A stretch of DNA of 64,000 nucleotides, taken from the NCBI GenBank assembly GCA_030650395.1, contig JAUSDY010000110.1, positions 1 to 64,000 of the forward strand, written 5' to 3'. Shown piece by piece: positions 15,473 through 22,260 of this stretch. Source of the DNA: Acidobacteriota bacterium. Its GTDB lineage: Bacteria; Acidobacteriota; Vicinamibacteria; Vicinamibacterales; UBA2999. Below the pieces are notes generated by a model. That model had not been told where the DNA came from. It saw only the letters and a program-made list of their open reading frames with translations, and made no database searches. The number at the start of each line of letters is the position of its first letter. Positions within the stretch are counted from its first letter, which is position 1. The position numbers were made by a program, and so were the translations under genes.

Positions 15473-15550
15473 GGCACCCCTTCCGCCTTCGCGCGAAGCG
15501 CGCCACGGCGAGACTCGCCGTAGCCTTGGCGGAGGCGGTTATGGGGTGCC
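15473..15550. repeat. Nested palindromic module upstream of the his leader
   Basis: GGCACCCC at 15473 pairs with GGGGTGCC ending at 15550. Inside are TTCCGCC/GGCGGAG and ACGGCGAG/CGCCGT pairs plus the GTAGCCTTGGCGGAGG motif also seen in hisB and beside the sigma-factor gene. In the 422-bp gap 15384-15805 this module, the his leader and the terminator are the recognisable features. Confidence 0.7.
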
Positions 15551-15603
15551 GGATACAGCTCTATTTGCAAAGCACGCTGCCGATGAATTACGCTCTGGAA
15601 GTC

Positions 15604-15678
15604 ATGTCGCTCGTCCACCACGCGCACGGCAGCCATCATCACCGTTCACAGAACGGCACGGCAGGAGTTTGCGCGTAG
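15604..15678 (+). CDS. hisL: Histidine leader peptide of the his attenuator
   Basis: A 24-codon frame starts with ATG 15604 (TGGAAG just upstream) and ends at TAG 15676. Codons 5-13 read HHAHGSHHH, that is six His codons in nine, which is far above chance. A hairpin and then a Rho-independent terminator follow, and the his structural genes begin 128 bp downstream. This is the classical arrangement in which ribosome stalling at His codons during histidine shortage prevents terminator formation. Confidence 0.85.
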   Translation: MSLVHHAHGSHHHRSQNGTAGVCA

Positions 15679-15748
15679 CTAGACGACGACATCCAACAAG
15701 ATTCGTTAGACGCAAAGGCCCGCTGTAACCAGCGGGCTTTTTGTTTTT
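15642..15748 (+). promoter_or_regulatory. his operon transcription attenuator
   Basis: CCGTTC (15642-15647) and GAACGG (15651-15656) form a hairpin right at the end of the His-codon run. TTTGCG (15668-15673) can pair with CGCAAA (15711-15716), immediately before the terminator stem. These give candidate pause and competing helices; the exact antiterminator was not modelled. Regulation by histidine supply is inferred from the leader peptide. Confidence 0.7.
15717..15748 (+). terminator. Rho-independent terminator of the his leader
   Basis: GCCCGCTG (15718-15725), loop TAAC and CAGCGGGC (15730-15737) form a GC-rich stem followed by TTTTTGTTTTT (15738-15748). It lies upstream of hisI in the coding direction, so it must be conditional. 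Confidence 0.9.
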
Positions 15749-15751
15749 AAG

Positions 15752-15802
15752 CGGGAGGGCACTCCTTGTCGGGAGGGCACCCCTGCCTGGTCGGGAGGTC
15801 AC
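15752..15802 (+). repeat. Three CGGGAGGKCAC copies before hisI
   Basis: CGGGAGGGCAC occurs at 15752 and 15770 and CGGGAGGTCAC at 15792. Each carries a GGGAGG core, and the last is placed as a ribosome-binding site for the GTG start of hisI at 15806. Confidence 0.75.
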
Positions 15803-15805
15803 TTC

Positions 15806-16198
15806 GTGTCGGGATCAAAAGTGATGGATTTTTCTAAACTCGACGGGCTCATCCCCGCGGTGGTGCAGGACGAGACCAGCAACGAGGTGCTGATGGTGGG
15901 CTTTATGAACGACGAGGCCTGGGCGCTGACCCAGCGCACCGGTTACGTCACGTTCTTCAGCCGCACGCGCAACAAGCTCTGGATCAAGGGCGAGACCTCG
16001 GGTAACCGGCTCGCGGTCCGGCAGATGTTCGTCGACTGCGACGACGACACGGTGCTGATCAAGGTCGCGCGCGAAGGCGATGGCAACGTGTGCCACACCG
16101 GCGAGCGCAGCTGCTTCTACAGGGTGATCGACAAACCTAAAGGTTTGTCGCCACAGGTAGCGCGGAACTTCAGTTCCGCGAATGAGGAAACCAAATGA
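15806..16198 (+). CDS. hisI: Phosphoribosyl-AMP cyclohydrolase
   Basis: The 130-residue protein has the HisI pattern: [36 protein letters not shown], and the metal-binding DCDDDT with Cys residues in [10 protein letters not shown]. It opens the purine ring in the third step of histidine synthesis. No HisE domain is fused, so that activity must be encoded elsewhere. GTG 15806 is supported by GGGAGG 8 bp upstream; ATG 15824 is an alternative. After the catalytic core the last 20 residues ([19 protein letters not shown]) come from two palindromic repeat modules. The stop overlaps hisG by 4 bp. Confidence 0.94.
16129..16150. repeat. Palindromic module encoding DKPKGLSP (in hisI)
   Basis: Arms CGACAAACCT and AGGTTTGTCG surround an AA centre. 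Read in frame it gives DKPKGLS(P). Near-identical palindromes give the same peptide in the TolC-like gene (42779-42800) and the PIG-L gene (51279-51300). Confidence 0.93.
16161..16180. repeat. Palindromic module with CGCGGAACT arms (in hisI)
   Basis: Arms CGCGGAACT and AGTTCCGCG surround TC, preceded by GTAG. The same palindrome with an AA centre lies at 26872-26891 at the end of the Sir2 remnant. In hisI it encodes the C-terminal ARNFSSAN. Confidence 0.9.
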
Positions 16199-17082
16199 AG
16201 TTGCGGCTCGGCATTCCAAAAGGCTCGCTGCAGGACGCGACCGTGCAGCTGTTCCAGCGCGCGGGCTACCAGATGCGCGTCGATTCGCGCTCCTATTTCC
16301 CTGCGATCGACGACCCCGAGATCGAGTGCATGTTGATCCGCGCGCAGGAAATGGCGCGCTACGTTGCCGACGGCGTGCTCGACGCCGGGCTGACGGGGCT
16401 CGACTGGATCGCCGAGCACGAGATCGGCCACCCCGAGCAGACGCCGCTCGCGCGCATCTGCGATCTGATTTACGCCAAGCAGAGTTTTGGCAAGGTCCGC
16501 TGGGTGCTGGCCGCGCCGGAAGATTCACCGTTCAAGACCGTGGCCGACCTCAACGGCAAGCGGATCGCGACCGAGCTGGTGCGGGTCACCAAGCATTACT
16601 TCACGACCAAGGGCATGGACGTCGACGTCGAGTTCTCCTGGGGCGCGACCGAAGTGAAGCCTCCCGTCCTCGCCGACGCCATCGTCGAAGCCACCGAAAC
16701 CGGCTCGACGCTCCGCGCCAACCGGCTCCGCATCATCGAAACGATCATGGAATCGAACACGCAGCTGATCGCGAATCAGCCGGCGATGGCCGATGCGTGG
16801 AAGAAGACCAAGATCGAAAACCTGGCGCTGCTGCTCAAGGCCGCGATCGAGGCGCAAGGGCGGGTTGGACTGATGCTCAACGCCAAGCGGGCGGACCTCG
16901 AGAAACTGATCGCGCTGCTGCCCGCGTTGCAGCGGCCCACCGTGTCGTCGCTGAGCGATCCCAAGTGGGTGGCGATCAATACGATCCTCGAGGAGAAGGT
17001 CGCGCGCGATCTGATTCCGAAGCTGAAGAGGGCGGGTGGACAGGGCATCGTGGAGTACCCGCTTAACAAGATCGTCGTCTAA
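16195..17082 (+). CDS. hisG: ATP phosphoribosyltransferase (long form)
   Basis: The protein begins [22 protein letters not shown] and contains [14 protein letters not shown] and the PRPP-binding region [12 protein letters not shown]. At 295 residues it is the long HisG form with a C-terminal regulatory domain ([20 protein letters not shown] and the end), so it should not need HisZ and is likely feedback-inhibited by histidine. It catalyses the first committed step. ATG 16195 overlaps the hisI stop. Confidence 0.96.
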
Positions 17083-17120: not shown

Positions 17121-17132
17121 AGTTTGGCCTTT

Positions 17133-18410
17133 ATGAAGATTGTGCCGTCAACCAACCGCCGCGCAGTCGACCAATTGCTGTCGGCGACGCGGGTGCGCGA
17201 TCGCGCCACCGAGCGGCGGGCGGCGGAGATTATCGCGCGCGTCCGGCGCGGCGGGGATGCGGCGCTGGCGCGCTACGCCCGCGACCTCGATGGCCATCGC
17301 GGCGCCATTGAAGTGCCGCGGCGCGCCTGGGAATCACGGGCGCGTCCGTTGGCGCCGGCGGCGCACGCGGCGATCAAGCGCGCCGCCTCGAACATCCGAA
17401 AGGTGTCGCGGCAGCAGGTTCCAACCGGGTGGCGGCTGAAGGTGGCAGCGGGCATCACCGTCGAGCAGCGCGTCGTTCCGATCGCCAGCGTCGGCTGCTA
17501 CGTGCCCGCGGGACGCTACCCCCTGCCCTCGTCTTTGTTGATGACGGCGATCCCGGCACGGGCGGCGGGTGTGCCGGAGGTGGTCGTCGCGTGCCCCAGG
17601 CCCGACGCCGCGGTGTTCGCAGCGGCGATCGAAGCCGGCGTCGACCGCTTCTTTCAAATCGGCGGGGCTCACGCGATTGCGGCGCTTGCTTATGGCACGC
17701 GGACGGTGCCGCGGGTCGACAAGATCGTCGGGCCCGGTAACCGGTGGGTCGCCGCGGCCAAGTCGCTCGTATCGGCGGACTGCGGCATCGACTTCTACGC
17801 CGGCCCGACCGAGATCCTGATCGTGGCTGCAAGCGGGTCCCCGGCATGGATCGCGGCCGACCTGCTCGCTCAGGCCGAACACGACCCAGACGCGCGGGCG
17901 GTCTTCATCACCACCAATCGACGGCTGGCAGACCGCGTCGCCGTCGAAGTCGAAGCGGCCATGCCGGCGTCAGGTCCCGCGCGCCAGGCGATCGCGCGGC
18001 ATGGCGGCATCATCGTGTGCCGCGGCATGAACGAGGCGATGGCACTGGCCAACACCGCCGCCCCGGAACACTTAGTGGTGGGAACCGAGGCACTGGCACG
18101 GCTCGTCTGGAATGCTGGTGCGGTATTCGTGGGCGGATGGACGGCGCAGGTGGCCGGCGATTACGCGATCGGATCGAATCACGTGCTGCCAACGGCCGGC
18201 GCCGCGCGCTATCGCGGCGGGCTGAACGCCGCCGATTTCGTCAAGCTGGTGTCGGTGCAGCGGATGACGAAGGCGGGCCTCGGGCGAATTGCGAAGACCG
18301 TCACGACCCTCGCCCGCGCAGAGGGATTGAAATGCCACGCACGTTCGATCGATGTAAGGCAGAAGGCAGACGCAAGGCAGAAGGCAAAAGGCAGAAGGCA
18401 AAAGCGATGA
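17133..18410 (+). CDS. hisD: Histidinol dehydrogenase with a repeat-encoded tail
   Basis: The HisD pattern is clear: GCYVPAGRYPLPSSLLMTA, IGGAHAIAALAYGTRTVPRV, GPGNRWVAAAK, FYAGPTEILI, AQAEHDPDA and NHVLPTAGAARY, which includes zinc-ligand and substrate residues. It oxidises histidinol to histidine in two steps. ATG 17133 is chosen over an upstream in-frame TTG. The last 20 or so residues ([19 protein letters not shown]) are strongly basic and encoded by the GGCAGAA array at 18356; they are not part of the HisD fold. The stop overlaps the hisC start (ATGA). Confidence 0.95.
   Translation: MKIVPSTNRRAVDQLLSATRVRDRATERRAAEIIARVRRGGDAALARYARDLDGHRGAIEVPRRAWESRARPLAPAAHAAIKRAASNIRKVSRQQVPTGWRLKVAAGITVEQRVVPIASVGCYVPAGRYPLPSSLLMTAIPARAAGVPEVVVACPRPDAAVFAAAIEAGVDRFFQIGGAHAIAALAYGTRTVPRVDKIVGPGNRWVAAAKSLVSADCGIDFYAGPTEILIVAASGSPAWIAADLLAQAEHDPDARAVFITTNRRLADRVAVEVEAAMPASGPARQAIARHGGIIVCRGMNEAMALANTAAPEHLVVGTEALARLVWNAGAVFVGGWTAQVAGDYAIGSNHVLPTAGAARYRGGLNAADFVKLVSVQRMTKAGLGRIAKTVTTLARAEGLKCHARSIDVRQKADARQKAKGRRQKR
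18356..18406. repeat. Single-arm GGCAGAA (7-bp) array forming the hisD tail
   Basis: About seven GGCAGAA/GGCAAAA units run to within 1 bp of the hisC start codon. There is no reverse-complement arm. Seven is coprime with three, so every frame of this strand reads the same basic heptapeptide (GRRQKAE or GKRQKAK) with no stop. Confidence 0.92.
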
Positions 18411-19486
18411 CCACGATTCAAGGTGTCCCCGATCTCGGCCCCGGCCTGCGGCTGCACCTCAACGAAAACACCGGCGGCTGTTCGCCGAAGGTCGTCGCCG
18501 CCGTCCGCGCGTTCGATGGGCCGCGCCTCGCGACCTATCCGGACTTCCGCGACGCCATCCTCGAAACGGCGGCCTTCCTCGGCGTCGATCCCGATCGCAT
18601 CGTTTTGACCAACGGACTGGATGAGGGCATCCTGCTCGCCTCGATCGGCTACCTGACCAGCCGCACGCCGGAAGCACTTGTCGAACTGGGCGCGCCGCTG
18701 ACCGCGCCGTCAGACACGCCGGAAATACTGGTGTCGCAGCCGGCCTTTGAACCGTACCTGAGCACTGCCCACGCGATGGGCGCGCGCGTGGTTTCGGTCC
18801 CGGCGGCAAAGGACTACTCGTACCCGGTCGATGCGGTGCTGCAGGCGCTCACGCCCAACACACGAATCGTGTACATCAACAATCCCAACAACCCGAGCGG
18901 GCGGCCGGTGCCGAAAGACGCGATTCACCGCGTGGCGCGGGACGCGGGTCATGCGCTCGTGTTCGTGGACGAGGCCTATCAGGATTTCCACGGCGAGAAC
19001 TTCCTGAAGGAAGCTGCCGAGTACCCAAACGTGCTGGTCGGGCGCACGTTTTCGAAGGCGTTCGGGTTAGCGGGCATGCGGGTCGGCGTGATGATCGCAT
19101 CGCCCGAAATACTCGAGCCGATCCGGCGCGCAATGCCGCTGTTCAACCTCAACGTCGTTGCCGTGGCCGCGTTGCGAGCCGCCATTGCCGATACGGAATT
19201 TCGATCGTGGTATCTCGCGCAGGCGGCGGAGTCGAAAGAGCTGGTGTACGCCGCGTGCGATCGCGCCGGCTTGAAATACTGGAAGAGCGCCACCAACTTC
19301 GTGCTGATCGACGGCGCCGGCCGGGCGCGCGAGCTGGTGGACGGCATGATCGCCAGGGGCGTGTTCGTTCGCGATCGCACGAAGGACCCGGCCTGCCCCA
19401 ATTGTTTCCGGCTCACCACCGGCGTGGTGGAACACACCCGCGCGGCGGTCGAGACGCTGGAGGCGTTATGCGCCCACCTTCGCTAA
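18407..19486 (+). CDS. hisC: Histidinol-phosphate aminotransferase
   Basis: The 359-residue PLP enzyme has [47 protein letters not shown], and the PLP-binding Lys in [16 protein letters not shown]. It transfers an amino group to imidazole-acetol phosphate. ATG 18407 overlaps the hisD stop and is preceded by the repeat array, so translation probably depends on coupling to hisD. A long upstream open extension in this frame is only a shadow of hisD. Confidence 0.95.
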
Positions 19487-20118
19487 AGCTTCCACCTCCG
19501 CCAAGGCTACGGCGGACAAGACGGCGGGCAAGCCGCAAAGCGGTAATCGATCGGCGGACCGCCGAAACGCAGATCAAGGTGACGCTGTCGCTCGACGGCA
19601 AGGGCAAGTTCCAGAATGCCACCGGCATCCGCTTTCTCGATCACATGCTGGATCTGGTGGCGCGGCACGGCGGGTTCGATCTGAAGGTCAAGGCCAGCGG
19701 CGATCTCGATGTCGACCAGCATCACACCGTCGAAGACGCCGGCATCGCGCTCGGCGAAGCTGTGCTGGCGGCCGTCGGCAACAAGCGCGGCATTAATCGC
19801 GCCGGCTACTTCGTGATGCCGATGGACGACACGCTCGCGGTCGCGGCGATCGACTTGAGTGGGCGACCGCATGCGGTGATCGATACGAAAGTCACCGTGC
19901 GGCTGGTCGGCGATCTCCAGACCGAGCTGGTGCACGACTTCTTCGAGGGCTTCGCCATGGCGGCCCGCGCCAACGTGCACCTCAAGGTCCTCTACGGCCG
20001 CTCGAATCATCACAAGATCGAAGCCTGCTTCAAGGCGTTCGCCCGCGCGCTGAGGGTGGCATGCTCGAAAGACAAGCGCATGGCGCGCATGCTCCCGAGC
20101 ACCAAGGGCCTGTTGTGA
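19468..20118 (+). CDS. hisB: Imidazoleglycerol-phosphate dehydratase with an N-terminal repeat insert
   Basis: The metal-binding HisB motifs are present: [35 protein letters not shown], and [22 protein letters not shown] with [17 protein letters not shown]. It carries only the dehydratase domain (216 residues), not the fused phosphatase. The family core starts near [14 protein letters not shown] (residue 27). The preceding Pro/Arg-rich residues come from a palindromic module. ATG 19468 overlaps hisC by 19 bp. The stop overlaps the hisH GTG. Confidence 0.94.
19490..19516. repeat. Palindromic TCCGCC/GGCGGA module at the hisB N-terminus
   Basis: TCCGCC (19497) and GGCGGA (ending 19516) flank AAGGCTAC, with CTTCCACC before and CAAG after. 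Related modules lie at 9884, 15473, 23083, 24012 and 42003. It is read in frame as a Pro/Arg-rich extension. Confidence 0.85.
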
Positions 20119-20720
20119 TCGCACTCGTCGACTACGGCGCGGGCAATCTCACGTCCGTGCGCAAGGCGCTTGCAGCACTCGGCGCGAGCGTGTGGACACC
20201 GACCGTGCCTGGCGAGCTCGCGCGCGCCCACGGCATCATCGTTCCCGGCGTCGGCCATTTCGATTCCACGCGCGGCCTCACCGCTGACTGGCGCGCGGCG
20301 ATCTCGGCGACCGTCGCCGACGGCACGCCGCTGCTCGGCATCTGCGTCGGCTTGCAGTGGCTGTTCGAGGGAAGCACTGAAGCGCCCGACGTCGCGGGGC
20401 TCGGGGTGTTTAAAGGAACCTGCTTCATTTTTACGGGATCCGAAAGCGCGCGTCTGAAAGTGCCACATGTTGGCTGGAACAGCCTCACCATGCCGCGCGC
20501 CACGCGGCTGATGGCCGGCGTCGCGCCGGGCACGCAGGTCTACTTCACGCATTCCTACGCCGCACCGGTCGTCGACGAGACGGCGGCCGTCTGTGAGTAC
20601 GGCACCGCCTTCAGCGCCGCGGTTGAGCGCGATCGGGTATCAGCGGTGCAGTTCCATCCTGAAAAGTCCGGGCCCTCAGGCCTCCACATTCTCGGCAATT
20701 GGCTGCGCGATGCTCGCTAA
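20115..20720 (+). CDS. hisH: Imidazole glycerol phosphate synthase, glutamine amidotransferase subunit
   Basis: [17 protein letters not shown], the nucleophile loop [15 protein letters not shown] with the catalytic Cys, [16 protein letters not shown], and VQFHPEKSG with the His-x-Glu of the class I amidotransferase triad identify HisH. GTG 20115 is used because it overlaps the hisB stop (GTGA) and gives the family start MIALVDYG. It passes ammonia to HisF. Confidence 0.95.
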
Positions 20721-21465
20721 GCGGATCATCGCGTGCCTCGACGTCCGCGACGGCAAGGTCGTCAAGGGGGTGAACTTCGAAGGTCTTCGAGACGCCGGCG
20801 ACCCGGCCACGCTCGCGCGCCGCTACAACACCGAAGGCATCGACGAGATCGTGATTCTCGACGTCACCGCCACGGTCGAGGCCCGCCAGGCGCGCGCCCA
20901 CACTATTGCCGCGGTCGCGCGCGAGATCTTCCTGCCCCTCGCCGTCGGCGGCGGCATTCGAAGCGAAGACGATGCGGCGGCAGCGATCGAGGCGGGTGCG
21001 GATAAGGTCAGCCTCAACACGGCGGCGATCAGTAATCCGGAGTTGATTACGACGCTGGCCAGGCGCTACGGCAGCCAGGCGGTGATCGTCGCAATCGATG
21101 CGAAGCTGCAGGACGGGCGGTTCGCCGTTTACGGCCGCAGCGGCCAGTCGGAAACGCCGCGCGACGCGGTCGAGTGGGCACGGGAAGCCACGGCGAGAGG
21201 CGCGGGAGAGATCCTGCTGACCTCGATCGATCGCGATGGGACGAAAGCCGGGTTCGATTGCGAGCTGACCGCGGCGGTCTCGGATGCTGTCAACATCCCG
21301 GTGATCGCCTCCGGCGGCGCGGGCTCGTTCGAACACTTCGCCGAGGTCTTCACCACCGGCCGAGCCGACGCCGCCCTCGCCGCATCGATTTTTCACTTCA
21401 ACGAAAAGAGCGTCACCGAGCTCAAACAGTTTCTCCACTCAAAGAACATTCCAGTGCGCCTGTGA
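20710..21465 (+). CDS. hisF: Imidazole glycerol phosphate synthase, cyclase subunit
   Basis: The TIM barrel shows [27 protein letters not shown] split across the first strand and loop, [14 protein letters not shown] with a phosphate site, [14 protein letters not shown] with the catalytic Asp, and [13 protein letters not shown] with the second phosphate site. Length is 251 residues. ATG 20710 overlaps the hisH end by 11 bp, matching their partnership. Confidence 0.96.
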
Positions 21466-21561: not shown

Positions 21562-22260
21562 ATGCTTATCCCTTCAATTGATCTCCAGGGCGGCCGCGTC
21601 GTTCAGCTCGTACAGGGCGACAAGCTGGCCATCGCGTCCGACGATCTCGAGGGGTGGATCGCGAAGTTCTCCACGTTCCCGAAGGTGCAGCTGATCGATC
21701 TGGATGCGGCAATGTCGCGCGGCAACAACGACGCGCTGGTCCGCCAGATCGCCTCGCGGCTGCCCTGCCGCGTCGGCGGCGGCGTGCGCAGCGTGCGGCG
21801 CGCCGAAGAGCTGATCGCCGCCGGCGCGCAGGCCGTGATCGCCGGCTCGGGCCTGTTCCGGTGTGGCGACGGCACTGACATCAACCAGATGATCGACCAC
21901 GATTTCGCGCGGGCGCTGGCCGACCTGGTGGGGCCCGATCGCCTGATCGCCGCGGTCGATTCGAAGGCCGGCCGCGTGGTGATTCACGGTTGGAAAACCT
22001 CGCTGCCCCTGACCGCTGTGCAAGCGGTCGCCGCGCTCGAGCCGTACTGCGCCGAATTCCTCTACACCCATGTCGACAGAGAAGGCCTGATGCAGGGCAC
22101 TGACATGGGCGCGATCAGGGCCGTGGCGAAGGCCACCGGCCGGAAGCTGACCGCCGCCGGCGGCATCACGACGCGGGCCGAGATCGATGCGCTTGACGCC
22201 CTCGGCATCGACGCCGTCGTCGGGATGGCGATTTACACCGGATCGCTGGCTATCGACTGA
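21562..22260 (+). CDS. hisA: Phosphoribosylformimino-5-aminoimidazole carboxamide ribotide isomerase
   Basis: The barrel begins LIPSIDLQGGRVVQLVQGD with the catalytic Asp, and continues RVGGGVRSVRRAEE, TAAGGITTRAEIDALDALGID and GMAIYTGSL. Length is 232 residues. ATG 21562 is preferred to in-frame codons nearer the array. It is the last gene of the his operon; two large inverted-repeat elements follow. Confidence 0.93.
   Translation: MLIPSIDLQGGRVVQLVQGDKLAIASDDLEGWIAKFSTFPKVQLIDLDAAMSRGNNDALVRQIASRLPCRVGGGVRSVRRAEELIAAGAQAVIAGSGLFRCGDGTDINQMIDHDFARALADLVGPDRLIAAVDSKAGRVVIHGWKTSLPLTAVQAVAALEPYCAEFLYTHVDREGLMQGTDMGAIRAVAKATGRKLTAAGGITTRAEIDALDALGIDAVVGMAIYTGSLAID

Follow-up and report, generated by a model that had tools for sequence, protein, structure and literature searches.

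The positions of all elements at the locus are collected in Table 1. They lie on the forward strand of the window (the whole 64,000-nt stretch of DNA that was analysed), which comes from a genome assembly of 5.4 Mb in 180 contigs. Running 5′ to 3′, a promoter-like pair of boxes is followed closely by a leader ORF with six histidine codons in nine; a small hairpin lies where this His run ends. An intrinsic terminator hairpin with its U tract comes next, and then eight genes that are identified as hisI-G-D-C-B-H-F-A. A sequence-only reading of this DNA had described the 24-codon leader, the CCGTTC/GAACGG hairpin, a terminator with T-tract ahead of hisI and an eight-gene operon downstream, and each of these is present. 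Its assignment of the DNA to the phylum Acidobacteriota is also right, the named near neighbours being Acidobacteria/Vicinamibacterales.

Table 1. Features of the his leader and operon, in window coordinates
Feature	Position	Strand	Remark
−35 element TTGCAA	15565–15570	+	comparative promoter pattern, TTGnnn-N17/18-TAnnnT
−10 element TACGCT	15589–15594	+	ends 9 nt 5′ of the leader ATG
his leader ORF MSLVHHAHGSHHHRSQNGTAGVCA	15604–15678	+	ATG 15604, stop TAG 15676–15678, 24 codons
Regulatory His codons, 6 in 9 codons	15616–15642	+	unique in window; run kept in relatives
Small hairpin CCGTTC-ACA-GAACGG	15642–15656	+	at end of His run; covaries
Antiterminator 5′ arm (predicted)	15658–15673	+	inside last codons of leader ORF
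Antiterminator 3′ arm (predicted)	15711–15726	+	overlaps terminator 5′ arm
Intrinsic terminator hairpin (15714–15741) and U tract	15714–15748	+	stem 15714–15725/15730–15741, then TTTTTGTTTTT
hisI, phosphoribosyl-AMP cyclohydrolase	15824–16198	+	first operon gene; start ATG 15824 from relatives
hisG	16195–17082	+	
hisD	17124–18410	+	start approximate
hisC	18410–19486	+	start approximate
hisB	19480–20118	+	start approximate
hisH	20121–20720	+	
hisF	20710–21465	+	
hisA	21562–22260	+	start approximate

An in-frame ATG at 15583 is unlikely as the leader start because it falls between the −35 and −10 boxes. The hisI gene probably begins at ATG 15824, giving the MDFSKL start of its relatives, rather than at GTG 15806. 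No second run of six His within nine codons occurs in the 64 kb window when both strands are scanned, and dinucleotide shuffles of the intergenic region never gave more than four His in nine codons (n = 2000). The upstream regions of trpE and leuA in the same genome contain no analogous leader. The other his genes are present in this genome, with hisE (phosphoribosyl-ATP diphosphatase) not rising above the family cut-off; its best match is 23.8 bits, on contig C137. A tandem CGGGAGGGCACTCCT-type repeat (15752–15816) occupies the region between the terminator and hisI, and belongs to an interspersed element with roughly 30–40 similar copies in the genome. A second interspersed repeat (15500–15554) abuts the promoter upstream, and copies with 90–96% identity occur at ~10 other places in the genome.

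Conservation of the leader and its promoter

The regions upstream of hisI were compared at 110 loci from related genomes within the order Vicinamibacterales (Acidobacteriota). A leader was scored where at least 5 His fell within 12 codons, 60–400 nt upstream of hisI. Such leaders are found at 97 of the 110 loci; 63 of the 70 genera are represented, as are 12 of the 13 families. Of the other 13 loci, several are nevertheless matched by the covariance model, and in some the leader has 4 His. Across the relatives the leaders keep 5–8 His, encoded by 336 CAC and 286 CAT codons; since both codons are in use it is the amino acid that is conserved, and not a string of nucleotides. The median spacings are 33 nt from the last His codon to the stop codon, 33 nt from the stop codon to the terminator, and 112 nt from the first His to the 3′ arm of the terminator. 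The conservation of His codons and terminator on which the sequence-only reading depended is found across the order and in further families. R1, a covariance model for finding such his leaders, gives a single strong match in the genome of the window, located at the leader site (E = 7e-16), the next match having E = 0.06. Both hisI and the leader were undetected in four near-complete genomes of the same order (G045, G055, G061 and G071), which are possibly histidine auxotrophs.

Directly 5′ of the leader start a TTGnnn (TTGACA-like) box, a spacer of 17–18 nt and a TAnnnT box are present in 58 of 62 genera, compared with 0–1 of ~60 in control windows. The gap between the −10 box and the start codon is 7–12 nt in 56 of the 62 genera, where shuffles expect 0.22. 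The promoter is detectable by cross-genus comparison only; a single-sequence promoter scan of the window called none, and the layout from promoter to start is shared by none of the 51 long ORFs of the window. It recurs in families f23 and f72 and in records labelled as Bryobacterales, and is absent in families f18 and f31. TAnnnT signals ~10 bp 5′ of the start codon have been taken as a mark of leaderless genes (PMC3160421), and this is the arrangement found here. The leader mRNA is thus predicted to be leaderless or nearly so, and the conserved near-leaderless layout is the least expected feature of the attenuator.

The boxes might not be a real promoter, in which case the same attenuator would be preceded by a longer 5′ UTR and the mRNA would not be leaderless. 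Families f18 and f31 show longer gaps or a Shine–Dalgarno-like motif, and the 5′ end of the leader is a prediction from sequence. A longer 5′ UTR is nevertheless unlikely, given a box pair held at a fixed position so far beyond chance and the published mark of leaderless genes, and it would leave the attenuator itself unaffected.

Predicted alternative pairing within the leader RNA

Base pairing was analysed in 56 aligned sequences, almost every one from a different genus. The terminator is paired in 95% of cells, with both-sided changes in 6 of 10 pairs. Its 5′ arm, together with bases immediately upstream, could also pair with the final codons of the leader ORF, forming a putative antiterminator of 18 pairs. 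This element goes beyond the sequence-only reading, which named no antiterminator, and it holds a consistent register with covariation. Its cells are paired in 67.5% of cases, compared with 28–45% when the register is slid by 1–3 columns. The number of cells with two-sided changes exceeds that in each of 500 shuffles; as the sequences are related these shuffle counts are indicative only, and the slide controls are in agreement. Taken sequence by sequence, the antiterminator energy is better than shuffles (p ≤ 0.05) in only 55%, because the region is GC-rich. The reading frame provides a result that is independent of both the shuffle and the slide statistics. The antiterminator motif GGCAGGACTGCGC lies in frame 1 in 17 genera and in frame 2 in 15, and is translated as ..PAGLRA.. 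in some genera and as ..RQDCAR.. in others. Selection therefore acts on the RNA, and not on the peptide tail.

The small hairpin following the His run exhibits compensatory changes in 6 of 6 pairs, with 75% of cells paired compared with 29–45% when slid. It is not the antiterminator, and is possibly a pause or spacer hairpin.

Folding of the leader with the ribosome at paused and unpaused positions, put forward in the sequence-only reading, gives an antiterminator in the stalled state and none at the stop codon. The folds were made on transcripts extending to just before the 3′ arm of the terminator. All 85 MFE folds with a ribosome placed on the middle His codon have half or more of the terminator 5′ arm paired to the leader ORF; of 84 folds with a ribosome at the stop codon, none does. 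In partition-function folds the antiterminator is formed in 84 of 85 sequences when the ribosome is stalled mid-run and in 0 of 85 when it is at the stop codon; the pairing for the window itself is 0.77 and 0.00 respectively. Shuffling of the leader lowers the mean pairing of the arm from 0.81 to 0.56 (p = 2e-15). The antiterminator would form in 51 of 85 sequences without translation, and in the window the start of the ORF then pairs with the antiterminator arm while the terminator stays free. Because these untranslated folds are mixed, a conserved 1:2 protector helix is not established. Equilibrium folding of the complete window transcript favours the terminator also when the ribosome is stalled; antitermination therefore has to be kinetic, as is assumed for classical attenuators.

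Probable attenuation of the his operon

The elements of a his attenuator are found together at this locus. A short ORF with clustered His codons lies 5′ of his biosynthesis genes, an intrinsic terminator stands between that ORF and the first structural gene and, as judged by folding and covariation, a mutually exclusive antiterminator depends upon the position of the ribosome. We conclude that transcription of the his operon is attenuated at this locus by way of the translating ribosome, a reading to which we give a probability of about 0.93. That stalling of ribosomes at His codons would control the operon had been proposed from the sequence, and conservation, the predicted antiterminator, covariation and folding all lend this support.

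In the mechanism that we infer from these elements, a σ70-type promoter would start the transcript within ~0–5 nt of the leader AUG, and because the start is so near the AUG a ribosome could load almost as soon as the RNA emerges. When His-tRNA is scarce the ribosome would stall in the His run, and the final third of the leader ORF would stay open for pairing with the emerging 5′ arm of the terminator. Once the antiterminator had formed, the polymerase would go on into hisI-G-D-C-B-H-F-A. When His-tRNA is plentiful the ribosome would reach the stop codon at 15676, which adjoins the end of the predicted antiterminator helix, and would physically cover the antiterminator 5′ arm. The terminator could then form, and transcription would end at ~15748.

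Attenuation might act mainly on the translation of hisI or via Rho, rather than through intrinsic termination. Translational attenuators exist (PMC9413887), and the four leaders of family f10 (L048, L060, L071 and L099), which retain the His run as well as the antiterminator motif, have a terminator-like hairpin without a recognisable U tract, with more GC-rich segments beyond it. A strong GC stem and a U tract are nevertheless found in most sequences, and in the window. Moreover the U tract ends well before hisI and the hisI start is left uncovered, making control by either of these routes very improbable. That the ORF, which is conserved and looks translated in many genera, encodes a functional His-rich (e.g. 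metal-binding) peptide, with a terminator merely ending its own transcript and his regulation incidental, is scarcely credible, since the peptide is unconserved outside the His run, its C-terminal RNA motif lies in differing frames, the ORF accompanies his operons, those led by hisG or hisD among them, and of the 19 listed R1-negative genomes from the same family or order 18 likewise yielded no hisI. Transcription attenuation by the translating ribosome gives the his operon of this widespread soil phylum both a sensor and a mechanism, and the locus could serve as a clean system in which to study attenuation on leaderless mRNA.

Relation to known attenuators and range over the phylum

Leader-peptide attenuation is known chiefly in Proteobacteria, Actinobacteria and some Firmicutes. 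The known his attenuators are in Proteobacteria and some Firmicutes (PMC9413887; PMC2965389), the latter comprising the B. cereus group, Peptostreptococcaceae and Erysipelotrichales (PMC9413887), and in bacilli histidine leaders precede hisS/hisZ paralogues (PMC2965389). Within non-subscription literature we found no published his attenuator in Acidobacteriota; an earlier mention elsewhere is possible. The mechanism is an ordinary textbook one, well supported, in a phylum for which no earlier report was found.

At gathering thresholds no Rfam family matched in the window, the T-box riboswitch included. RF00514 (His_leader; gathering threshold 49 bits) had no listed match in the window with the cut-off relaxed to E ≤ 10, and scored the E. 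coli his leader, the positive control, at 131 bits. The E. coli leader gave a weak match with R1 (30.8 bits). Look-alikes to Leu, Trp and Thr leaders (Rfam, E ≤ 10) were weak and rested largely on the terminator, and were rejected. The locus shares with enterobacterial hisL (RF00514) a leader peptide with a His run before the his operon, an alternative antiterminator and terminator, and the coupling of translation to transcription. It differs in having an interrupted His run, an antiterminator arm placed within the leader ORF up to the stop codon, and a leader start predicted to be near-leaderless. In function and logic it is the same as known his attenuators, and it is not a member of RF00514.

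The his attenuators of Firmicutes are likewise lineage-specific His leader peptides with a terminator and antiterminator that were found by comparison, a likeness at the level of architecture; they belong to another phylum, and to few species there. Leaderless leader-peptide attenuators are known in Streptomyces lividans (leuL, trpL1 and ilvL; PMC8079986) and in Sinorhizobium meliloti (trpL; PMC7298713), where the leader ORF likewise begins at the transcript 5′ end or close to it. These serve other amino acids in other phyla, and their 5′ ends are experimental whereas that of the Acidobacteriota leader is predicted. We tentatively suggest, at somewhat less than even odds, that the Acidobacteriota have an ancestral class of near-leaderless his attenuators that evolved apart from the proteobacterial one, in which the finishing ribosome directly covers the antiterminator arm and a separate 1:2 protector helix is not needed.

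R1 has matches in 103 of 149 genomes of the class, and in 86 of 297 genomes sampled over the phylum. Forty of the phylum matches lying outside the order were inspected. In families f23, f31, f72, f18 and f74 there are His leaders 5′ of operons led by hisI, hisG or hisD. Many weaker matches in the phylum (E > 1e-4), and weak matches in sister orders, have no His run or no his genes and were discarded. A phylum-wide search for the His-run pattern was uninformative, almost all genomes giving a match. The leaders of family f18 (L239 and L246) lie 5′ of a hisD-led operon and have only four His and a Shine–Dalgarno-like motif, in which they are unlike the near-leaderless type.
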